This document shows positions 1-9,285 of a DNA stretch of 9,697 nt, in pieces; the stretch's first letter is position 1, and every line of letters begins with the position of its first letter. This DNA comes from a bacterium (GTDB taxonomy: Bacteria > CAIJMQ01 > JAADFP01), in contig JALUVB010000140.1 of assembly GCA_027021085.1 (NCBI GenBank), positions 1 to 9,697 on the forward strand, in the 5' to 3' direction. Both the position numbers and the translations under genes were made by a program. Below the pieces are notes generated by a model. That model was given only the letters and a program-made list of their open reading frames with translations, ran no database searches and had not been told where the DNA came from.

Positions 1-19
1 TTTCCTTAATGGTAATCAT
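1..19 (-). CDS. Start of a gene running off the left edge (partial, 6 codons)
   Basis: Seen: on the minus strand an ATG at 19-17 opens a frame reading M-I-T-I-K-E before the window ends. A strong Shine-Dalgarno (GGAGG, 31-27) lies 7 bases upstream, and a near-consensus promoter lies just beyond it. The gene follows the last attC of the array in the same orientation, so it may belong to a fourth cassette. Cassettes with their own promoter are often toxin-antitoxin modules, and a start like MITIKE would suit a Phd/YefM-type antitoxin, but six residues cannot identify a family. That idea is inference only. Confidence 0.6.
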
Positions 20-37
20 ATTCCCACCTCCAGATAA

Positions 38-66
38 AATATACCATATGTCAAAGAAAATGTCAA
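38..66 (-). promoter_or_regulatory. Sigma70-type promoter for the left-edge gene
   Basis: Minus strand: -35 TTGACA (66-61), a 17-base spacer, -10 TATATT (43-38). A second copy of TTGACAT lies 12 bases downstream of the first (54-48), giving a short direct repeat between the two boxes that could act as an operator. The predicted transcription start (about 31) falls at the Shine-Dalgarno itself, so the leader would be extremely short, or transcription starts slightly upstream. Confidence 0.65.
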
Positions 67-117
67 TATATGATACAGGTTAATTGGCAGTTAACTCGTC
101 ACCTTATTTGTTTTTTC

Positions 118-191
118 ATCTAATGGCAGAGCTCACCTGCCGCCAAGGAGTGCAGCGGAATTGCCAGTCCGAGTTAATGCGTTTGTTGGCC
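118..191 (-). other. attC site of the third cassette, distal core degenerate
   Basis: Read on the minus strand, R'' is GGCCAAC (191-185), the exact complement of this cassette's first bases (GTTGGCC at 1809-1803). The inner part shares CCGCTGC, GGCGGC and TGAGCTC blocks with the neighbouring attC at 1803-1887, so the two are related. The expected R' core reads ATTAGAT (124-118), with A in place of the crossover G. The site is either mutated or a junction with non-integron DNA. The stem pairing is imperfect. The stop codon of the upstream gene lies inside this site. Confidence 0.65.
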
Positions 192-1790
192 TGTGTTCTC
201 TTCAAGCCAAGCCCGGTTCCATGCAATACGATAACCACCTAATTGTTCAATAGTAGAACCCATTATATCAGGGCTTTGTATTCTTCTAATCCGTTTTACT
301 TGAATTGTGCATACTAAATGAGGACCTAAGCCATATCCTGAGAGACGTCTGCGACGATAATCTTTACAGAAGACGCTAATACGAGCGTAACCCAAGGGAA
401 GAAAACGGATAATTTTGCATATTGGCGTTTTTTTACGTGCTTCTGAGAGAGCTTTTCTGACTGCTTTTTTCCGGATCTTTCGAATAATATCTTGTGTTAT
501 TGAACCTTTATGATATTCTACAAAAACACTCCCATTAAGTACAGCCCCCCAGGCATTCCTATGGATATTAGCTTCTCGGATGTATATTTCAGGTAGGCCA
601 AGTTGCCTTTTAATATCTAATATAGCAATTGGCATGTTAAGTCTGAAACTCAATATAATGTTCTGAATCCGAGCAATGAATCGGGGGGTTTTTATTCGGG
701 GGACATAGAATACTAAATCGTTTTCAAGTACGCCCTTATAATCTTCAAGGATAGCATCTTGCTTATTCCTTAAATCATGGAGCTTTTTGCCATCAAATGC
801 CGCCCACCCAGGCCAAGAGGAGGAAGAACGAATGGAAAAGAAATAGCGATCATAGCCGGGCACAAAACTTTCAACAAGAACTCCTGTCTGAAATGTGGAT
901 AATTGGACCTTCCCGTAATCAGCAGTGTTTGGCCTGGCATATATTATAAGTTGGTTCAATCCCGTGAATTTAGAGGGTGTACAACCTACAACCTCCCACC
1001 ATGGGGTCTTGGTTTCCTCTTTAAGTTCCTCCAACAGCAGCTGTTGAGGTAACCGGTATCCATTTGGTTGATTTACTAAAAGGAAAAGAGAAAGTGCAAG
1101 AGCTAAAGCATTGCAAGAATCAAGAAGATCATCAAATGTCCTAACGATATCTCTATCGCTATATTTTTCTTCATTCCCTTTCTTGTCGCAGTACAGAATT
1201 TCGTTCTGAAGATATGTAATACCACCGTGGGCGATGGCATTTCGGACTATATGCTTGTATGGATTGACAACATCAGACAAGCTAGTTCTTTCTATCTCCT
1301 CAACGATTGGAAACAAATCTAGGCCATCTGTTCCACTGCCCCGATCAACGCGCGAAAAATAGGCAACGATACGACAAAATGGAGTGAAAACGGCTTCTGT
1401 AAGCCTAAGATAAGAGGGGTGTATTTGTTGATCGATGAACCTAATGAACTCAATATTATCAAGTTTCTCAAAAAAATCGTGCCAGTCTAAGTTGTTGATC
1501 TCTTCGAGATGAAGGAATGCTCGATTCAACTCAGCATCATGCTCAGTCAGATATTGCTGAAGTGCACCTTGGCTAATTCGATTTCTATCCTCTAACCATC
1601 CAAGAAATTTACTGTAAACAGATTGCGAATAAAAACGCTGTGGCGATCTTTTAATGTATTTGTGAATAGAAAGGAAGTGATCATGTGGACAGTCTTCCAA
1701 TTCAGGAAAGTGCTCCTTGATATCGCTGCGTTTTCGTGCATGAGTGTTCCGTAGCAGGGGATTCTCAAGTATGTTTCTGAGAGCTTCCAT
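174..1790 (-). CDS. HEPN-like cassette protein with long basic C-terminal region (unknown family)
   Basis: I do not recognise a named family. The first half is largely helical in character and contains IVRNAIAHGG, an R-x4-H motif with Asn after the Arg (R183 and H188 from the ATG at 1790). This is the pattern of HEPN domains, many of which are RNases in toxins, Abi proteins and CRISPR effectors. It is followed by a hydrophobic helix rich in Ala and Leu, as in other HEPN-like folds. Residues from about 250 to the end form a second region of mixed beta character with a very basic stretch near the C terminus (KIRKKAVRKA, YRRRRL), which could bind nucleic acid. I chose ATG 1790 (538 residues). 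An in-frame TTG at 1808 sits exactly at the cassette crossover and would add six residues. No good Shine-Dalgarno is visible. The last residues (GQQTH) are encoded by attC sequence. A role as a single-gene anti-phage effector is inferred from the motif and the cassette context. Confidence 0.75.
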   Translation of the reverse strand: MEALRNILENPLLRNTHARKRSDIKEHFPELEDCPHDHFLSIHKYIKRSPQRFYSQSVYSKFLGWLEDRNRISQGALQQYLTEHDAELNRAFLHLEEINNLDWHDFFEKLDNIEFIRFIDQQIHPSYLRLTEAVFTPFCRIVAYFSRVDRGSGTDGLDLFPIVEEIERTSLSDVVNPYKHIVRNAIAHGGITYLQNEILYCDKKGNEEKYSDRDIVRTFDDLLDSCNALALALSLFLLVNQPNGYRLPQQLLLEELKEETKTPWWEVVGCTPSKFTGLNQLIIYARPNTADYGKVQLSTFQTGVLVESFVPGYDRYFFSIRSSSSWPGWAAFDGKKLHDLRNKQDAILEDYKGVLENDLVFYVPRIKTPRFIARIQNIILSFRLNMPIAILDIKRQLGLPEIYIREANIHRNAWGAVLNGSVFVEYHKGSITQDIIRKIRKKAVRKALSEARKKTPICKIIRFLPLGYARISVFCKDYRRRRLSGYGLGPHLVCTIQVKRIRRIQSPDIMGSTIEQLGGYRIAWNRAWLEENTGQQTH

Positions 1791-1802
1791 TTTCTCATTC
1801 AA

Positions 1803-1887
1803 GGCCAACGCCTGAGCTCAGCCGCCGACAAGACGCAAGCCCGAAGGGCGCAGCGGATGGGCGTTCAGGTGCAGCGCTTTGTTATGT
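1803..1887 (-). other. attC site of the middle cassette (85 bp)
   Basis: Minus strand: R'' ACATAAC (1887-1881; extended ACACATAAC) and R' GTTGGCC (1809-1803) preceded by GC. The extended R'' is the exact complement of the start of its own cassette (GTTATGTGT from 2794). The inside holds a strong apical hairpin (GCCC, loop of three, GGGC at 1839-1849). An outer arm pairs CCTGA near R'' with TCAGG near R'. Length and layout fit a medium-sized attC. Confidence 0.85.
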
Positions 1888-1893
1888 GTACCT

Positions 1894-2766
1894 TTATATT
1901 TCAATTTTCGCCTCAACTAATTGAAATAATGCCGCTTTCAAAACCTGCCAGGATATTTTTGCAGTATATTCATCTGGATTGAATTTTGAACTAACCTGTT
2001 GAAACGGATGAATATAATTACGAAATTCCCTCAAGGAATGGCTGAATTTTTTAACATCTTCTTTCAGTAATCCCAACTCATGCGATACATTTATTAAATC
2101 GTTTAATGTCCACTCGTGGAACGGCCTTACTTTACCTCCGCTGTTCTTGGGAGAAGACTTTGCCTTATTAAACTGTTTTGGATATTTCAGCGCTATTCCC
2201 AAAAGAATTCCTTCCAAGGTACTACCTGAAAGAAAAATAACCGCTAGCGGCGCATTTGAGGATAAACATCGTTTAATCTCTTCAAGGCGCATACTGAGAA
2301 CATCAGTAATGGCGCTATTTAAGCCTATTTTTTCAAGAGGTATTTCTTCAAATTCTATATTAAGAAAATCTGTCTCATCGTCAGTAAGTTTTGACGATAA
2401 CGATTTTTCTAAATCACTTTCATCGGCTTTAACAAAGCTAATCTCCTTACCCTTTCTAATTACTTTCCATCCGTCAAATACGAGATACTGATTGAATTCA
2501 TCGATAAATTTATCTAGTTCGCCCATTCTTCCGATAAAATTGACTGGTGCAAACAGATTTTTTATACATTTATCCAACTCCGGTGTTCCATTAATCTTTG
2601 ATAGTTTCTCGTCTGTATATATCCATCTTGAAGGAAAACCTTGTCCATAAGTATCATTAAAGCCAAGCTCATTAAAAAATTGAACTAATTTCGGTCCAGA
2701 ACGATATTCTGTCTCTTCGTTGATAAGACCTCGAAGTTTTTCTAACGTCTTCTTTTGTAAAATCAT
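1894..2766 (-). CDS. AbiJ-like / HEPN-like abortive-infection-type protein
   Basis: A 290-residue protein that fills its cassette: the ATG lies 27 bases inside the crossover and the TAA stop about 6 bases before the R'' core. The N-terminal part, about residues 15-110 (with YRSGPKLVQFFNELGF, GQGFPSRW, NGTPELDKCIKN, NFIGRMGELD and FNQYLVFDGW), resembles N-terminal domains I associate with AbiJ-type proteins. This is family recall, not a search result. The C-terminal part, about 155-290, is helical and ends in SLREFRNYIHP. This contains R246-x6-H253 and an overlapping RNxxH, in the style of HEPN/DUF4145-type domains, whose members include RNases and abortive-infection effectors. No signal peptide or membrane segment is seen, so it is probably cytosolic. 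A weak AGAAG ribosome site precedes the ATG. Expression probably depends on the array promoter at 3770-3798. Defence function is inferred; the exact family is uncertain. Confidence 0.82.
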   Translation of the reverse strand: MILQKKTLEKLRGLINEETEYRSGPKLVQFFNELGFNDTYGQGFPSRWIYTDEKLSKINGTPELDKCIKNLFAPVNFIGRMGELDKFIDEFNQYLVFDGWKVIRKGKEISFVKADESDLEKSLSSKLTDDETDFLNIEFEEIPLEKIGLNSAITDVLSMRLEEIKRCLSSNAPLAVIFLSGSTLEGILLGIALKYPKQFNKAKSSPKNSGGKVRPFHEWTLNDLINVSHELGLLKEDVKKFSHSLREFRNYIHPFQQVSSKFNPDEYTAKISWQVLKAALFQLVEAKIEI

Positions 2767-2787
2767 TTCATCTTCTTAATTAAAGAC

Positions 2788-2847
2788 ACATAACGCTCAG
2801 CATCAGCGGCGGTGCGTAGCGCCGTCCGCTGCATGCTGTTGTTAGAC
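2788..2847 (-). other. attC site of the TIR cassette (60 bp, well formed)
   Basis: Minus strand: R'' GTCTAAC (2847-2841) and R' GTTATGT (2794-2788) enclose a near-perfect palindrome. CAGCAT pairs with ATGCTG. CAGCGGACGG pairs with CCGCCGCTG except for a single extra A, which looks like the extrahelical base that gives attC its strand polarity. A loop of about 8 bases sits at the tip. The 60-bp length is the classic '59-base element' size. R'' is complementary to the start of its own cassette at 3732-3726. Confidence 0.92.
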
Positions 2848-2872
2848 GCCTTGTTCTTACAACGCCTTGTTC
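2846..2872. repeat. 11-bp direct repeat over the TIR gene stop codon
   Basis: ACGCCTTGTTC occurs at 2846-2856 and again at 2862-2872 (plus strand), period 16. It covers the last TIR codons, the stop, and the first bases of the attC R'' core. It looks like a small local duplication at the gene/attC boundary. Confidence 0.7.
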
Positions 2873-3699
2873 ATATCCACAGGTAGCCCAGCGGCCTTTA
2901 GTTCCCTGGCTAACTGCAATCGCCAGGCGCCCTCCGTGTCCAGCTTCACGTAGAGTACTCCCGAGTAATCGGAAGGTATCTCGACGCCCTCCACGTACAG
3001 TACGCACACGCGAGACCGGCCAAGCCTGCCAAGGAAGAACCCGAGTTCAAGGATCACGTTCTGCCGTGCACGAGGATGCAGTTCATCGTTCGATGCCGAC
3101 GCCAACCCGCCGCGATCGTCGCCAGTGAGAAGCACAACTGCGAATCCTACGTCGCTGTACTCTTCGAACTTCTCGATGATAGTCCGGCCGCGATTAGGCT
3201 GCTCGCGAAGTAGAATAACTTTTTGATCTAGTTTCTCAAGGAAGCGTGCTACGGCCTGAATTGCCGCCTCGTCGTGACCGTGCACCAGGAAGATCCGATG
3301 GCCCTTTGGTGCATTCGCTAGTACGCCAGACACAGTTCCCACCCCTTGGAGTTGCTGCTCCGTCCTGAGCAGTTCCACTAAGCCCTCAAGACGCGCGAGC
3401 TGGGATTGGAGGCTTTCCGCTCGGTGGTTTTCCCACCATTCTTCGCCTGCTCCCATCGGGAAGGCCCCGTACTTTCCCACATCCGTCACGCTGCTCACGT
3501 TTGGTGAATTCCGACCGAACGCCTTCTCTAGATAATTGCGGGTCACGAGCTCCCACTGCCCATAGGAATCACTGTCGAGAGGACGGGATTGTAGGAGTGC
3601 GCGACCCTTTCGGAGTTGCTCCTCGAGGAGGCGGATCCCCGTAGCAGGGTCAACCTCCGGGACGCCCGGAGGATCTGGCTCTTTGCGTCTACGTGCCAT
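2857..3699 (-). CDS. TIR-like nucleotide-binding protein (PF10137 / CAP12-PCTIR TIR type)
   Basis: A 280-residue cytosolic protein. The C-terminal half is a TIR-like domain of the type also found in CBASS Cap12 and Pycsar effectors. It contains the strand-loop RIFLVHGHDEAAI (135-147), REQPNRGRTIIEKFEEY (165-181), the strand VGFAVVLLTGDDRG (184-197), ARQNVILELGFFLGRLGR (211-228) and a final SDYSGVLYV segment. E176 in TIIEKFE is the best candidate for the catalytic glutamate of NAD+ hydrolysis. The N-terminal part (about 20-120; LLEEQLRKGRALL, YLEKAFG, then a helical stretch) is not STING-like or an obvious cyclic-nucleotide sensor. Members of this family that degrade NAD+ kill or stall infected cells; that activity here is inferred. 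ATG 3699 has only a weak upstream AGGGA. The gene is visibly richer in GC than its neighbours, as expected for an acquired cassette, and is the promoter-proximal one. Confidence 0.9.
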   Translation of the reverse strand: MARRRKEPDPPGVPEVDPATGIRLLEEQLRKGRALLQSRPLDSDSYGQWELVTRNYLEKAFGRNSPNVSSVTDVGKYGAFPMGAGEEWWENHRAESLQSQLARLEGLVELLRTEQQLQGVGTVSGVLANAPKGHRIFLVHGHDEAAIQAVARFLEKLDQKVILLREQPNRGRTIIEKFEEYSDVGFAVVLLTGDDRGGLASASNDELHPRARQNVILELGFFLGRLGRSRVCVLYVEGVEIPSDYSGVLYVKLDTEGAWRLQLARELKAAGLPVDMNKAL

Positions 3700-3725
3700 C
3701 CGATCTTTCCCTACTCCGCTCGTAC

Positions 3726-3732
3726 GTCTAAC
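3726..3732 (-). other. Entry core of the array (cassette/attI-like junction)
   Basis: Minus strand GTTAGAC, a perfect GTTRRRY core, marks the start of the first cassette. Upstream of it there is no palindrome, so this is not another attC. It is the position expected for attI or for a secondary insertion site (preceded by GGAT). A tiny ATG frame (M-L-D-V-R-A-E-stop, 3735-3712) spans the junction, recalling the short frame in attI1 known to help translation of the first cassette. That parallel is only suggestive. Confidence 0.7.
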
Positions 3733-3769
3733 ATCCTTTTTTATTTTTCTTCTATTATCAATTATCTAA

Positions 3770-3798
3770 ATAATACATTTAAAGCGGCAAAGCGTCAA
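3770..3798 (-). promoter_or_regulatory. Putative array promoter (Pc-like)
   Basis: Minus strand: -35 TTGACG (3798-3793), a spacer of exactly 17 bases, -10 TATTAT (3775-3770). Start of transcription is expected near 3763, about 30 bases before the cassette entry core and about 65 before the TIR ATG. No other good promoter precedes the cassettes, so it probably drives all three genes, with falling expression along the array. Confidence 0.7.
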
Positions 3799-3830
3799 AT
3801 TTTCTGCAATTTTTGCTGAAGAGAAGGGAA

Positions 3831-4100
3831 ATAGTAAACAGTGAATTGGTACCCTGGTATCTTGGTAATCCTGGTTTCTTGCCCGCCTGTCATGCCTGCG
3901 GAAGCAGGCATCCAGTAAAGCAGTGAGTAGATAGTAGCGGGTAGATAATAGTTAGGGAAGATATAAGATAGGTGTGAGGTGATAAGCAGAACTGGCAACT
4001 AACAACTCTCCCAAGATACAGGTGGGGCACAGGTGGAACTGGTAACTGGAAACTGGCAACTAACAACTCTTCCACCATAGACTTTAGACGTTAAACTGGG
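3831..4100. repeat. Degenerate intergenic repeat belt, left of the cyclotransferase gene
   Basis: The 516-base gap 3700-4215 contains no convincing gene. Besides the array promoter, it holds repetitive text: the 19-mer beginning ACTGGCAACTAACAACTCT occurs at 3991-4009 and 4052-4070. Variants of AACTGGTAACTGG, AGTAAACAGTGAATTGG and GGTAATCCTGGTTTC also recur. ACCATAGACTTTAGACG (4074-4090) recurs exactly at 5266-5282 on the other side of the cyclotransferase gene. These look like decayed dispersed repeats. The regular spacer and repeat lengths of a CRISPR array are absent. Confidence 0.75.
3892..3911. repeat. Perfect palindromic hairpin (REP-like)
   Basis: ATGCCTGC (3892-3899) and GCAGGCAT (3904-3911) form a perfect 8-bp stem closed by GGAA. 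It sits in a TGTC...CCAG context that I recall as a dispersed palindromic repeat in many bacterial genomes. It could be a REP/RAYT-type element or simply a transcript-stabilising hairpin. Having no poly-T tract, it is unlikely to be an intrinsic terminator. Confidence 0.6.
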
Positions 4101-4107
4101 AGGGGGA

Positions 4108-4120
4108 GTTGTCGGACAAC
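4108..4120. promoter_or_regulatory. 13-bp perfect palindrome upstream of the cyclotransferase promoter
   Basis: GTTGTC and GACAAC flank a single central G. The site lies 47 bases upstream of the predicted -35 box, where an activator or repressor could bind. No known operator is recognised. Confidence 0.3.
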
Positions 4121-4166
4121 ATCCAAATGAAACCAACTACCGGCAACAAACAGGGAGAATATGGGG

Positions 4167-4215: not shown

Positions 4216-5052
4216 ATGAAGTATTCCCTGGCAATTTTCATAGGGCTTTTTATCTTATCAATTGCCGTGCTTCTTTATTACCGGTCAAATGTGCACGGCT
4301 CAACAGTTATTCCTCCTTCAGCAGACCCCAAAATTTCGGGAAAGGTCCCCATATATACTTACAGAATAGTAAATATTTATCCGCATGACAGAAAAGCTTT
4401 TACCCAGGGTTTGGCTTTTGAAAACGGATTTTTATACGAAGGAACAGGGTTCCAGGGAAAATCCAGCTTACGGAAGGTTAAACTGGAAAACGGAGCCGTC
4501 TTGCAGATTTATAAACTTCCCGAGCAATTCTTTGGTGAAGGTATAACTATTTATGGAGATAAAATTATTCAATTGACCTGGCGCTCCAGGGTGGGATTTG
4601 TCTATGATAAGAAAACCTTTAAGTTAATAAAACAGTTCACCTATCCCACCGAAGGTTGGGGCATTACCAACGATGGGAAACGCTTAATCATGAGCAATGG
4701 CAGCTCAACATTATACTTTCTGGACCCGAATACCTTTGCACAAATCGGGCAAATAGAAGTGCACGATAATAATTATTATCTAACCAGGTTAAATGAACTG
4801 GAATACGTGCAGGGAGAGATTTATGCCAACATATTACAAAGCGACTACATTGCCAGGATTTCTCCCCGCACAGGGGAAGTAACCGGCTGGATAGACCTGA
4901 GAAATATTTTGCCTCCCAGATACCGGAGAAACCGCACCCATGTGCTCAATGGAATCGCCTACGATACGCAGAACAACCGGCTGTTCGTAACCGGTAAATT
5001 CTGGCCGCGTCTTTTTGAAATTGAGCTTATCCCTAAAAGTAGTGAACAGTAA
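4216..5052 (+). CDS. Glutaminyl-peptide cyclotransferase, beta-propeller type (PF05096)
   Basis: A 278-residue enzyme predicted to convert N-terminal glutamine of peptides or proteins to pyroglutamate, releasing ammonia. The plant-type metal-independent propeller family is recognised by FTQGLAFENGFLYEGTG (62-78), FFGEGIT and QLTWR (105-123), EGWGITNDGKRLIMSNGS (146-163), RLNELEYVQGEIYANI (191-206), VLNGIAYD (243-250) and VTGKFWPRLFEI (258-269). The family's usual conserved acidic residue lies in the first of these motifs. Residues 1-22 form a hydrophobic signal or anchor segment, so the enzyme acts outside the cytoplasmic membrane. The ATG at 4216 gives the expected short N-terminal signal. 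The gene stands alone between two repeat belts, with its own promoter, and is not part of the cassette array. Its natural substrate cannot be told from context. Confidence 0.93.
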   Translation: MKYSLAIFIGLFILSIAVLLYYRSNVHGSTVIPPSADPKISGKVPIYTYRIVNIYPHDRKAFTQGLAFENGFLYEGTGFQGKSSLRKVKLENGAVLQIYKLPEQFFGEGITIYGDKIIQLTWRSRVGFVYDKKTFKLIKQFTYPTEGWGITNDGKRLIMSNGSSTLYFLDPNTFAQIGQIEVHDNNYYLTRLNELEYVQGEIYANILQSDYIARISPRTGEVTGWIDLRNILPPRYRRNRTHVLNGIAYDTQNNRLFVTGKFWPRLFEIELIPKSSEQ

Positions 5053-5345
5053 ACGGTAGTGAGTAGTTAGTAGTGAGTATCGAGGGGAAAGGTAGTAAAT
5101 AGTGAACAGTAAGCAGTGAATAGTGAGTTGGTTCCCCGTATCATGTGTTTTTCCCCTCTAATGTCTAAAGTCTGATGTCTATAGTCTAACATGGAGGTAT
5201 GGGTGTCCCGACATGCGCCGGGACAGGGAACTGGCAACTCACAACTAACAACTCACAACTTTCAGACCATAGACTTTAGACGGTAGACGGGGAGAGTATT
5301 GAAGAGTAAGCAGGGGATTAGTAGTCCTGGTTTCCTGGTTTTGTG
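5053..5345. repeat. Degenerate intergenic repeat belt, right of the cyclotransferase gene
   Basis: It begins right after the stop codon with runs built from AGTAGTGAGTAG, AGTGAACAGTAA and similar words (5038-5130). GTCTAAAGTCT (5163-5173) is the inverted copy of AGACTTTAGAC (5271-5281). Between them lie a CGGGACA hairpin and copies of the ACTGGCAACT/AACAACTCACAACT text also found at 3991-4070. ACCATAGACTTTAGACG (5266-5282) matches 4074-4090 exactly. No gene is supported here. Confidence 0.75.
5204..5225. repeat. Hairpin within the right repeat belt
   Basis: TGTCCCG (5204-5210) pairs perfectly with CGGGACA (5219-5225) around an 8-base loop. It is a 7-bp GC-rich stem with no downstream T tract, so it is more likely part of a dispersed palindromic repeat than a terminator. 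Confidence 0.5.
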
Positions 5346-5623
5346 GGGGAGCGGGCAGCGGCTTGCGCAGGAATGAGAAAAGAGAAGCAGAAAAGGAAAA
5401 AACCAGCCCGCATGTCATACCCGCCTGCCCTCCCTTCCGAAGTAATGCCGGGGCAGATTCCCGGTAGCAAGCCATGAGTTTTCCGGTATCCTGGTTTTGC
5501 ATACTGGCATTTGGGTTTATTCCAAGTTTCAGAAAAGATGCTGTCCTGCACTCATAACTTTTAGCGCACGCCCCCGGCCTTATATTCCATAATCCTTTAA
5601 GATGGGGTAAACTATTCACCACT
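5346..5623. other. Gene-free stretch upstream of the MFS-protease operon
   Basis: No gene is supported. The minus strand stays open for a stretch here, but its translation has no recognisable domain and is rich in Pro, Ala and Cys words typical of translated repeats. CCTGGTTTTG/CCTGGTTTCC words link it to the belts on either side. A promoter for the downstream operon should lie here, but I could not pick a convincing one. Confidence 0.5.
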
Positions 5624-6754
5624 ATGCTTTTATTAATTATTGCCAGCGCAATATTCGGGCTGAGTATTGGTCTATACGACTTTCTTCTTCCTTTTTACCT
5701 GGATACCCTGAAGATTTCTTACGGGAACATGGGAATAATCTTCTCTTTTTCCGCGGTGTTCCTCTTTTTTATAAGGATTTATGCTGGCCAGATTTCAGAT
5801 TTCATTGGCAGAAAGCATTTTTTCTCTCTTTCCCTCCTGCTTTCCGCATTCAGCAACCTTTTTACCCCCTTTTTCTCCACGGTAACAGCTCAAATATTGC
5901 TCCGCTCCCTGAGGGAAACCTCACGGGCGATTAAAGAAACAATACAGCAAGTTCTGGTTTTTGAACAATGGAAGGATAAATTCCGCCATCTCATTGCCTG
6001 GACAGTGGGGTCTGATTTCACCTTCCAGGGATTAGGAGTAATCCTGGGAGGATTTCTCCTGGTGAGAACAGGTTACAAGTTTCCTTTTGTTTTAATAGGG
6101 ATAATTACATTTTTCACCGCGCTATTATTCATTTTCCGGTTTGAGGAGAAATTTACTCCCTCGCACTCCTCCCTTTTTTCCTGGACGGCTCCCTTTAAGC
6201 ATCGCCTGCCCCGCCCACTGGTTCTTATTACCGTCTCGGGGTTCATCCTTATGATAGGAGTAAGTGCGAGTCATTCCTTTATTCTTCCCCTCTTCTTCTA
6301 CCACAAATTTTCCGTATCACCCGGCTGGGTCGCACTTATCTTAGCTTTTCATAGGTTCAGCCTGGGAATTCCCATGATACTGTCGGGAAAAATCGTAAAG
6401 TGGAATCTGAAGGCCACTACCATTATATTTATCTTCCTGCAAGGGGTGACAATCGCGCTTACCGCAGTGCCCTCTACATTTCTCCTGGCTTCAATCGTAT
6501 GGCTCACACATGACCTGGTAGGAGCGAGTTTCTGGGTGCCTGCCCGCAACACACTTGTTCAACATTACGCCCGGGAAGGAAAGAGGGGACTGGAGGTAGC
6601 CATAGTAATGTCCTTAAGCGGGCTGGGATGGATTCTGGGACCTTTAATTGCAGGGGCGGTGAGCAAGTATTCCATAAATTATCCTTTTATTATAAGTGGT
6701 ATAATAATCTGTCTTTCAGTGATACCACTCTTCTGGTTAGAAAGGGGTAAGTAA
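5624..6754 (+). CDS. Major facilitator superfamily permease
   Basis: A 376-residue integral membrane protein made of successive hydrophobic segments, consistent with 11-12 helices. The MFS motif A between helices 2 and 3 reads GQISDFIGRK (55-64), with the conserved Gly, Asp and Arg present. Two similar halves are separated by a charged cytoplasmic loop around residues 165-195 (RFEEKFTPSHSS, FKHRLPRP). The best-fitting description is a drug/metabolite-type exporter or uptake permease; the substrate cannot be inferred. The first helix starts right at the ATG, and upstream only a poor GGGG ribosome site is seen. The stop codon overlaps the start of the M16 protease (TAATG), indicating translational coupling. 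Coupling to a secreted peptidase raises the possibility that the permease handles peptides or their products, which is inference. Confidence 0.9.
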   Translation: MLLLIIASAIFGLSIGLYDFLLPFYLDTLKISYGNMGIIFSFSAVFLFFIRIYAGQISDFIGRKHFFSLSLLLSAFSNLFTPFFSTVTAQILLRSLRETSRAIKETIQQVLVFEQWKDKFRHLIAWTVGSDFTFQGLGVILGGFLLVRTGYKFPFVLIGIITFFTALLFIFRFEEKFTPSHSSLFSWTAPFKHRLPRPLVLITVSGFILMIGVSASHSFILPLFFYHKFSVSPGWVALILAFHRFSLGIPMILSGKIVKWNLKATTIIFIFLQGVTIALTAVPSTFLLASIVWLTHDLVGASFWVPARNTLVQHYAREGKRGLEVAIVMSLSGLGWILGPLIAGAVSKYSINYPFIISGIIICLSVIPLFWLERGK

Positions 6755-9285
6755 TGAGAAAAATTTTATTCTTTTCAATTCTTTTCCTGGCAATCTTACA
6801 CTCTTCCCTTTACCCTGCCCAAACACTGCAACTGCAAAACGGATTCCAGGCAATCTGGGAGAAACAGGAATCCCCCCTGGTGCACATAGAGCTATGGGTA
6901 AAAGCAGGGAGTATCTTTGAAAAAAATCTTTATGGAAGCGGCATATCCCACTTTGTGGAACACATGATATTTAAAGGGACAGAAACCAAAGCCGTGGGAG
7001 AGATAGCTAAAAAAATATCCCAGCTGGGAGGCGATGTAAGTGCCTATACATCCTTTGACCATACCGCATACCAGATTACTGTCCCCCGCGACAATCTTGT
7101 TCCTGCCTTGAATATACTTGCCAGGGCAGTGTACCAGCCCGCATTTGAAGAAAAGGAGCTGGAGAAAGAGAGAAAAGTTATCATAAAAGAAATGGAAATG
7201 AACCAGGATAATCCGGACAGGGTGTTGAGCCGTTACTTCTTCGAAAAATTCTTTTCCTATGCTCCCTATCGCTTCCCGGTGATTGGGTATAAAGATTCTT
7301 TTCTCAATATCTCACGCCAGGATATTATCAACTATCACAAAAAAATGTACGTGCCGGGTAACTCCCTACTAATAATCTGCGGCGGGATAGATGAAAGCAA
7401 GATTCCCTCTCTAATAAAGAAAACCTTCGGCTCTTTGCCCGCCTCCCCTATCCCTGTATTTTCCCTCCCCTCCGAACCTTACCTTAAAGGAAAGAGAGAA
7501 TTTGTTTACCGCAAAAAGATAAGCCTGGCCAGAGAGATAATAGGCTTTCCTATCCCCGGATTCGGTGGAAAGGATACCTTTGCCCTGGATTTGCTGTCTT
7601 CTATACTTTCAGACGGCAAAAGCAGCCTATTAGTCAGAACACTCAAAGAAACTAAGAACCTGGTTAACTCCATTTCCACCTTTTCCTACACCCCTTTGTA
7701 TGAAGGCATCTTTGCCATCGAGATAACCTGCGAGGCAAAAAACCTCAAGAAGGTGGAAAAAATACTCTGGGATGAACTGAACAACCTCCCCCGTAATATC
7801 ACTGAAAAAGAAATAGAAAGAGCAAAAAATCGCATAGAAATGGGCATCTTAAAGTCCGGGGAATCGGTGGAAGGCAGAGCCAGAATGCTCATCTCCGACT
7901 ACTTTTACTCCGGCAACCTGAACTATTCCCGTTTCTACCTTGCATCCATCAAGAAATTAAAAAAATCAGATATCCTGCGGGTAGCAAAGAAATACTTAAG
8001 AAAAGAAAATTACAGCAAAGTTTTGCTCCTTCCTGCTTCCTACCCGGTAGAAAAACAGAAAATTACAGTTGAAAACCAAACATTAAAAAAGATAACCTTC
8101 CCCTCCGGCGTGCGCGGAATATTTATCCATAAGGACGTCCCCTATGTAAACTTGAGAGTGGTCATGGGAGGCGGAGTAAAGTGGGAAACAGCAGATAACA
8201 ACGGCATATCAAAAATCATCTCTATCTTGCTTCTGCAGGGGGAAAAAGCCGAAAAATGGACAGACAAAATAGAAGCAGTGGGAGGCGAAATTTCCAGTTA
8301 TTCAGGTAACAATTCCATGGGGATTTCCATTACTTTGCCCTCTCAATATCTCACCACCGGATTAAAAGCTATCACAGAACTCATTCTCCACCCCCAGTTT
8401 TCCCCTGAGGAAATCGATAAGGCAAAGACAGACCTCTTGCGCAGTATAAGCATGCGAAAAGAAACTCCGTTTCGTTATGCTTTTTATCGCCTGAGAAAAA
8501 ACTTTTTCACCTCCTCCCCCTACTCCCTTTCTCCAGAAGGTGAAGTGAAATCAATAAAAAGTTTAACCCGGGAAGAAATCAAAAACTTTTACTTCTCCCG
8601 CCTCCTCACCAGCAACAATACAATTGTAGGTATCGGCGGCAAATTCCAGGAAGAAAAAGCCAGGAAATTCCTGGAAAGAAAATTCTCCCGCCTGGAAAAA
8701 GGCAGCAGGGTAAAAAGGGAAAAACTGAAATTTACCCGCAGGGAAAAGGAAGAGAGCGCAAATTTCGCAGAATCAGTAGTCTTTCTGGCTTTCCCTATTC
8801 CTCCTCTAAACTCTCCTGACCTCTATTCCATAGAAATTCTGCAAACTTATCTCTCTGACCAAACTTCCCCACTTTTTTACCACCTGAGAGATGAGAAAGC
8901 CCTTGCCTACCTGGTGGGAAGTTTTACTTTCCAGGGCTGGGATGAAGGAATGCTGGTCTTTTATCTTTTCACCGGAAAAAATAAACTCCGGGAGGCAGAA
9001 CAGGGGCTCTGGGAAGAGGTAACAAAATTAAGAAAGGAAGGCATCACCGGGAAAGAGTTAGCCTCGTTGAAAAGCAAATTAATCAGGCAAAAAAGCGAGA
9101 GTACAGAAACAGTGGACTCCCTTCTCTTCTCCTCCATGCTTTATGAACTTTACGGCCTGGGCTATCTTCTCCCCCTGCAGTGGGAAGAAAAAATAAAAAA
9201 AGTCACCCTATCAGACATACAGGAAACCATCAAAAAATACATCCAGCCTCAAACTTCCTTCACCTACATCCTGCAAGGGGAGTAG
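6754..9285 (+). CDS. Secreted two-domain M16 (pitrilysin-type) zinc metallopeptidase
   Basis: An 843-residue protein with a signal peptide (about 1-22, ending YPA before Q). The first M16 half carries the inverted zinc motif HFVEH (66-70) in GISHFVEHMIFKGT. The distal zinc ligand is probably E146 in KVIIKEMEMN, at the usual spacing. A related second half starts near residue 440 and lacks the zinc motif: the equivalent helix reads GISKIISILLLQG (484-496). It does keep the substrate-binding Arg/Tyr pair in HLRDEKALAYLVGS (R712, Y719). In M16B enzymes these two roles are often split between a catalytic and a non-catalytic subunit; here both sit in one chain, as in periplasmic fused forms such as PqqL. 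It should degrade peptides or unfolded protein fragments in the periplasm or outside the cell. It starts inside the MFS stop codon and ends at a strong terminator, so the two genes form an operon. Confidence 0.93.
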   Translation: MRKILFFSILFLAILHSSLYPAQTLQLQNGFQAIWEKQESPLVHIELWVKAGSIFEKNLYGSGISHFVEHMIFKGTETKAVGEIAKKISQLGGDVSAYTSFDHTAYQITVPRDNLVPALNILARAVYQPAFEEKELEKERKVIIKEMEMNQDNPDRVLSRYFFEKFFSYAPYRFPVIGYKDSFLNISRQDIINYHKKMYVPGNSLLIICGGIDESKIPSLIKKTFGSLPASPIPVFSLPSEPYLKGKREFVYRKKISLAREIIGFPIPGFGGKDTFALDLLSSILSDGKSSLLVRTLKETKNLVNSISTFSYTPLYEGIFAIEITCEAKNLKKVEKILWDELNNLPRNITEKEIERAKNRIEMGILKSGESVEGRARMLISDYFYSGNLNYSRFYLASIKKLKKSDILRVAKKYLRKENYSKVLLLPASYPVEKQKITVENQTLKKITFPSGVRGIFIHKDVPYVNLRVVMGGGVKWETADNNGISKIISILLLQGEKAEKWTDKIEAVGGEISSYSGNNSMGISITLPSQYLTTGLKAITELILHPQFSPEEIDKAKTDLLRSISMRKETPFRYAFYRLRKNFFTSSPYSLSPEGEVKSIKSLTREEIKNFYFSRLLTSNNTIVGIGGKFQEEKARKFLERKFSRLEKGSRVKREKLKFTRREKEESANFAESVVFLAFPIPPLNSPDLYSIEILQTYLSDQTSPLFYHLRDEKALAYLVGSFTFQGWDEGMLVFYLFTGKNKLREAEQGLWEEVTKLRKEGITGKELASLKSKLIRQKSESTETVDSLLFSSMLYELYGLGYLLPLQWEEKIKKVTLSDIQETIKKYIQPQTSFTYILQGE

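Follow-up and report, generated by a model that had tools for sequence, protein, structure and literature searches.

A gene cassette array without a neighbouring integrase, and a promoter-like leader repeated at array starts, in a bacterial metagenome-assembled genome

One end of the bacterial contig JALUVB010000140.1 carries an array of integron gene cassettes. The window analysed is the whole contig (C140), 9697 bases long, and belongs to a metagenome-assembled genome (MAG) of 1.93 Mb in 307 contigs that is 93.9% complete and in which no 16S sequence was found. All array features of the window lie on its minus strand. Read from the chromosomal side, they comprise a leader (3817-3726), cassettes 1, 2 and 3, and the start of cassette 4, with crossover points at G3732|TT, G2794|TT, G1809|TT and A124|TT. 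Cassette 1 (2794..3731, 58% G+C), bounded by the first two of these points, encodes a TIR protein of 280 residues (2857..3699). Cassette 2 (1809..2793, 37% G+C), likewise limited by crossover points, encodes a protein of 290 residues (1894..2766) with an Stk2/AbiJ-like N-terminus and a HEPN-like C-terminus (motif RNYIH). Cassette 3 (124..1808, 41% G+C) holds a reading frame at 174..1790, in which an ATG at 1790 is preferred to a TTG at 1808 and which contains a HEPN-like motif, RNAIAH. Of cassette 4 only the start (1..123) is present, with the ATG of a Phd/YefM antitoxin gene at 19, and the rest is found in another contig of the MAG, C287 (locus L012).

Scans for R'' and R' cores by regular expression missed attC sites and returned false ones, so that covariance models were used instead; in Rfam there was no attC family match and only chance matches were obtained. 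One model, R1, was built from nine attC sites of class 1 integron plasmid arrays, which avoids circularity, and was run with filters off on the window and on C287, whereas the other, R2, includes sites of this MAG with attC2 held out. R1 scores attC1 (2788..2848; matched over 2788-2847) at 33.3 bits (E 2e-7) and attC2 (1803..1889; matched over 1806-1884) at 16.4 bits (E about 0.01), and R2 gives the held-out attC2 34.5 bits, with an E-value of 7e-4 over the whole MAG. The bottom strand of attC1 folds clearly, at -20.1 kcal/mol (z -4.8), as against an unclear unconstrained minimum-energy fold for attC2 (z 0.6). Both are true attC sites, with the R''-L''-loop-L'-R' arrangement, conserved cores and a hairpin. 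The third site, attC3 (118..191, minus strand), is scored by neither R1 nor R2, forms no hairpin and has the R' core ATTAGAT; it fails as an attC site and is probably inactive.

The original prediction for this DNA, of single-gene integron cassettes beside ordinary chromosomal genes, is thus borne out by the R1 scores of attC1 and attC2 and by Pfam matches in the flanking genes. It had placed attC sites at all three positions and had staked itself on an attC model scoring at least one of them; since two of the three score, it survives on that count, and only 118-191 drops out, as a hybrid without the attC fold. Its other anchor, exact complementarity of 8, 9 and 7 bases between each cassette start and its own R'', needs correction in the last value: the complementarity is 8 bases in cassette 1 (GTTAGACG), 9 in cassette 2 (GTTATGTGT) and 8 in cassette 3 (GTTGGCCT). 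As sole proof of cassettes such complementarity was dropped, because the window contains ten GTTR/YAAC pairs of at least seven bases, of which the cassette pairs are three, and it is therefore weak when taken alone.

The array seems restricted to three cassettes only because the contig ends there. Positions 1-127 of the window are identical to the last 127 bases of C287 (L012 5418-5544), an identity that would correspond to an assembly-graph overlap at k=127. The overlap stops a few bases inside attC3, where the graph branches at the junction of cassettes 3 and 4; this may reflect strain variation. Cassette 4 begins where attC3 ends and runs on into C287 with genes for Phd/YefM (L012 5167-5436, 6.8e-11) and ParE (4862-5155, 5.7e-9). 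It is followed by cassette 5, a PIN-toxin gene with a small upstream open reading frame (VapBC-like), and by cassette 6, a small HicB-like open reading frame with an aspartyl-protease-like gene. The array thus totals six cassettes, and those in C287 hold mostly toxin-antitoxin genes. R1 scores one site there at 19.3 bits (4067-4142) and two others low (2612-2682 and 4786-4838), and R2 scores four attC sites in C287 and two in the window. After cassette 6 come a second leader, an array with one attC, and then chromosomal genes. This second array (L012 3110-3199 to 2612) consists of the leader, a HicB/HicA-like pair and its attC, and as it stands directly after the window's array the two are in tandem.

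Over the MAG, R2 finds ten attC sites on five contigs, and none in 354 kb of control contigs of the same MAG. There are at least six arrays, five of which have a visible start; contig C163 has three model-scored attC sites and two leaders, C289 two attC sites and one leader, and C293 a single attC, located where the contig begins. With at least two attC sites and no neighbouring intI, the array of the window is a cluster of attC sites lacking an integron integrase (CALIN).

The continuation of the array also bears on the claim that three abortive-infection genes side by side form an enrichment unlikely by chance. That argument falls: the contig includes only the first three of six cassettes, so that the apparent run of putative defence genes depended on where the contig happens to end, and two of the three proteins match no curated family. 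Cassettes elsewhere in the MAG match PADLOC candidates as well, for example a NucS-like protein in the C289 array (L101 143-1901, minus strand) that matches PDC-S11 at 6.2e-41. The same C289 array encodes a short protein, possibly truncated, that matches only the N-terminus of GmrSD (DUF262). The TIR, AbiJ-like and HEPN-like products might also have pointed to a defence island or a cluster of abortive-infection genes in which the attC-like repeats are due to chance. This was rejected because the array goes on with other cassettes, including toxin-antitoxin genes; a model derived from plasmids scores two of its sites, cassette 3 is shared as a whole cassette (see below), and we hold this explanation to be most improbable.

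A leader of about 85 bp stands before the first cassette in all five visible array starts of the MAG. In the window (3726..3817, minus strand) it contains a promoter of the sigma70 type, made up of a -35 hexamer TTGACG (3798-3793), a 17-base spacer and a -10 hexamer TATTAT (3775-3770), then an A-rich stretch and the attI-like core GTTAGAC (3732-3726). The consensus from an alignment upstream of first cassettes is AAATTTGACA, 17-18 bases, TATTAT or TATAAC, an A-rich stretch and a GTT core. Apart from the window's copy, four are known in the MAG and one in a genome of the same genus (G001), all directly before cassette arrays. One of these arrays was predicted by its leader: a BLAST search of the MAG with one C163 leader gave a weak match in C289 (E 0.012), and the array behind it, with cassette start GTTCGGCG, R'' CGCCGAAC, 8-base complementarity and two attC sites, was found afterwards. 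A four-leader profile matches the window leader at 4.7e-16, the held-out C289 copy at 3.9e-8 and the G001 copy, again before an array, at 1.6e-7, and nothing else in 218 kb. A five-leader profile was run on the array contigs and on 354 kb of other MAG contigs, of which about 22 kb is masked and about 330 kb searchable; it matches the window leader at 9.5e-16 and finds only the five array starts, the next match (E 0.18) lying in the control set.

The leader core resembles the consensus published for Delta-attI1 and Delta-attI2, AAACAAAGTTRRRY and AATAAAATGTTRRRY (PMC12901181). As in the attI1 and attI2 sites described in that paper, an A-rich stretch directly precedes a GTTRRRY core and insertion falls at G|TT; the leaders differ in not being beside intI, in being present in several copies, and in that we only infer their recombination. 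Position, resemblance and repetition at array starts together suggest that the leader is an attI-like recombination site, and its promoter is presumably active.

Alternatively, these could be ordinary CALINs produced by off-target (attG-like) insertion, in which the leader would be a type of strong host promoter and expressed cassettes would have been kept by selection. Insertion at attG is a described process, which in E. coli takes place at many scattered loci (PMC12901181, PMC12444791), the leaders do contain a promoter consensus, and pairs of leaders differ considerably. Their similarity nevertheless exceeds the promoter hexamers, reaching 93% over 57 bases, and ends at the crossover core, and no ordinary promoter in the unmasked control contigs resembles the leader. 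We consider this origin unlikely.

No integron integrase was found in the searchable MAG, in which contigs shorter than 3 kb are masked as N and beyond which unbinned sequence lies; the two tyrosine recombinases of the MAG resemble XerC and XerD. The earlier statement that no intI is in view therefore stands and extends from the window to this larger sequence. In the sequence examined, no intI accompanies any of the five leaders, and with no IntI at either flank of the array or in the searchable MAG the locus does not qualify as a complete integron. In seven genomes of the class, with short contigs masked, there was no confident IntI match, the IntI of Desulfosarcina cetonica serving as positive control. 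The class relatives G001, G003 and G004 have attC sites too, and G003 and G004 encode two tyrosine recombinases each. Several small attC arrays without intI were seen in the latter two (L091-L097), and in two arrays of class relatives (L095, L096) a different leader recurs, TATAAT before GTTAA, a pattern seen in these two sequences only.

The same facts could reflect a complete integron broken by assembly or binning, whose intI lies on a contig that is masked, missing or unbinned, the leaders being copies of its attI. The masking of short contigs and the incompleteness of the MAG leave room for such a contig, and draft assemblies are reported to inflate CALIN counts (PMC9024848). Against this, both ends of the window's array adjoin chromosomal genes without intI, which in the window (4216..9285, plus strand) are identified by Pfam as a glutamine cyclotransferase, an MFS transporter and an M16 peptidase, and the class relatives with attC sites, including G004 with its 10 contigs, are also without IntI. 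An assembly break of this kind seems improbable to us.

We judge it probable that the window holds the promoter-proximal half of an integrase-less cassette array, one of at least six in the MAG, and that cassettes entered at the leaders through an IntI supplied in trans. Such an IntI, whether lost, unbinned or visiting, would have inserted circular cassettes at the leaders by recombination between attC and leader. The leader promoter would then transcribe the first cassette, here the TIR gene, which is most likely the gene expressed because it lies directly behind that promoter. The TIR protein could act by depletion of NAD+ and the HEPN-like proteins by RNA cleavage, in either case shutting down the host cell against phage. 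A further step would be a distributed integron, in which several attI-plus-promoter leader copies round the chromosome each act as an independent entry and expression site, with a single integrase in trans, or a recombinase not recognised as such, acting on all of them; we offer this only tentatively and think it somewhat doubtful.

Several points weigh against entry of cassettes at the leaders through an IntI. The absence of IntI is unproven, because the short contigs were read as N and unbinned sequence was invisible to the search. The core of the C287 leader is degenerate (GTAATAA), and in C163 the match between first cassettes and their own R'' is imperfect. The leaders could be ordinary strong promoters, and the control sequence searched with the leader profile was limited to the roughly 330 kb mentioned above. 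Finally, the defence role of every cassette is putative, protection against phage by cassettes 1-3 through host shutdown being no more than plausible.

Cassette 3 provides evidence of movement as a cassette. When 84,980 species genomes were scanned with its protein, five relatives in five taxa were found, the closest, 90% identical, being that of D. cetonica. At the DNA level the two are 89.7% identical over 1666 bp, from 1812 to 147 of the window, so that the homology sets in no more than three bases from the cassette edge and breaks off within the terminal attC. The genome of D. cetonica encodes a true IntI (467 bits, cut-off 265), and in an Acidobacteria relative an attC (L026 6631-6690, 27.7 bits) lies directly behind the cassette-3-like gene. 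Cassette 3 is thus shared across phyla as a cassette unit. Searches for relatives of cassette 3 found none in viral contigs and none in plasmids. The three genes of the window were not seen together without attC elsewhere, cassette 3 being the one scanned in genomes. In D. cetonica, intI adjoins a LexA-like gene at a contig end (L036 7194-8908), and the array with cassette 3 lies on a different contig (L023). The neighbour of cassette 3 there (L023 3912-4898) encodes a 328-residue protein that carries an RNTTGH motif and matches nothing in Pfam or PADLOC; it is possibly another HEPN-like cassette.

The same comparison explains the failure of attC3 in the covariance models. The D. cetonica copy of the site is intact (bottom strand -20.2 kcal/mol, z -4.3), as against -9.8 kcal/mol (z -0.3) for the window's attC3, a hybrid in which the attC fold is lost. 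Its 5' half is that of the cassette-3 attC, and its 3' half (GGCGGCAGGTGAGCTCTGCC) is of the type endogenous to the class, resembling, for example, GCGGCAGGTGAGCTTGG in G003. As a loop like TTCCGCTGCGCTCC is common to both kinds of attC, the hybrid probably arose when the sequence between two attC loops was deleted.

Among the products, cassette 1 allows the firmest assignment. Its protein matches Pfam CAP12-PCTIR_TIR at 6.9e-36 (123.3 bits, cut-off 24.7), PADLOC PDC-S35 at 4.8e-78 over nearly the whole length, and Cap12 in the PDB at 2.4e-8. In its TIR domain and the PDC-S35 match it is like the CAP12/PycTIR effectors; it differs in being a single-gene cassette with no cyclase partner and in scoring far under the NCBIfam Cap12 equivalog cut-off (38.4 versus 450 bits). 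It is a strong candidate for a TIR effector of the CAP12/Pycsar type. Cassette 2 matches PADLOC Stk2 at 3.5e-13 (residues 10-117) and AbiJ at E 0.0044 in N-terminal residues 21-118 only, and proteins annotated as abortive infection family have a similar N-terminus. Viral contigs contain one distant relative of cassette 2 (L102 3742-9031), placed between hsdS-like and hsdR-like genes, so that its neighbours resemble a type I restriction operon. For the cassette 3 protein, Pfam, NCBIfam and PADLOC gave no convincing match; all five aligned relatives keep the R, N and H of its RNAIAH motif unchanged. RNxxxH-type motifs are present in cassettes 2 and 3, with no curated HEPN family match in Pfam. 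AlphaFold models of both (mean predicted local distance difference test score, pLDDT, 43 and 50, respectively) are too poor to judge the fold, and Foldseek with the low-confidence cassette 3 model gave matches of low template modelling score only. Of the products first proposed (TIR-like, AbiJ/HEPN-like and RNxxxH), the first stands as a strong TIR candidate, the second as AbiJ/HEPN-like and the third as an RNxxxH protein without a family assignment.

Elsewhere in the window, a protein of 98 residues with a GIY-YIG domain is encoded on the minus strand at the contig end (9367-9663). Short dispersed repeats (among them GTAGTGAGTAG, ACTGGCAACTAACAACTC and CCTGTCATGCCTGCGGAAGCAGG) fill the intergenic stretches 3860-4100 and 5041-5340, and repeats of the same kind are present near arrays on other contigs.

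Most of what is seen here is covered by known systems, namely CALINs, attG insertion, the CALINs of Xanthomonas and anti-phage integrons. Proposed origins of CALINs are off-target insertion, loss of intI and rearrangement (PMC8618304). The arrays here resemble CALINs as described in PMC9024848 in having two or more attC-bounded cassettes and no neighbouring intI, and differ in that several arrays of one genome start with the same promoter/attI-like leader. Like the multi-locus CALINs of Xanthomonas (PMC12444791) they occupy several chromosomal loci away from intI, whereas Xanthomonas often keeps intI at ilvD, and a shared leader goes unmentioned in the accessible part of that paper. Sedentary chromosomal integrons have been presented as reservoirs of anti-phage genes (Darracq 2025 and Getz 2025, both cited in PMC12444791). 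Here, as there, cassettes with toxin-antitoxin genes and putative defence genes lie in the chromosome; the difference is in the lack of an integrase found, the small scattered arrays and the putative nature of the defence role. A limited search of open papers found no description of a leader shared by several arrays of one genome.

CALINs are common and their origin is unsettled, and separate CALINs that share one leader offer a directly testable case for copied attI sites. If the leaders are such copies, cassettes would be expressible from several first positions; if they form a distributed integron, several new cassettes could stand in the first, expressed position at once. Cassette 3, a putative defence cassette, was recently exchanged between the lineage of this MAG and Desulfosarcina, and its hybrid attC shows one way by which a cassette becomes trapped.

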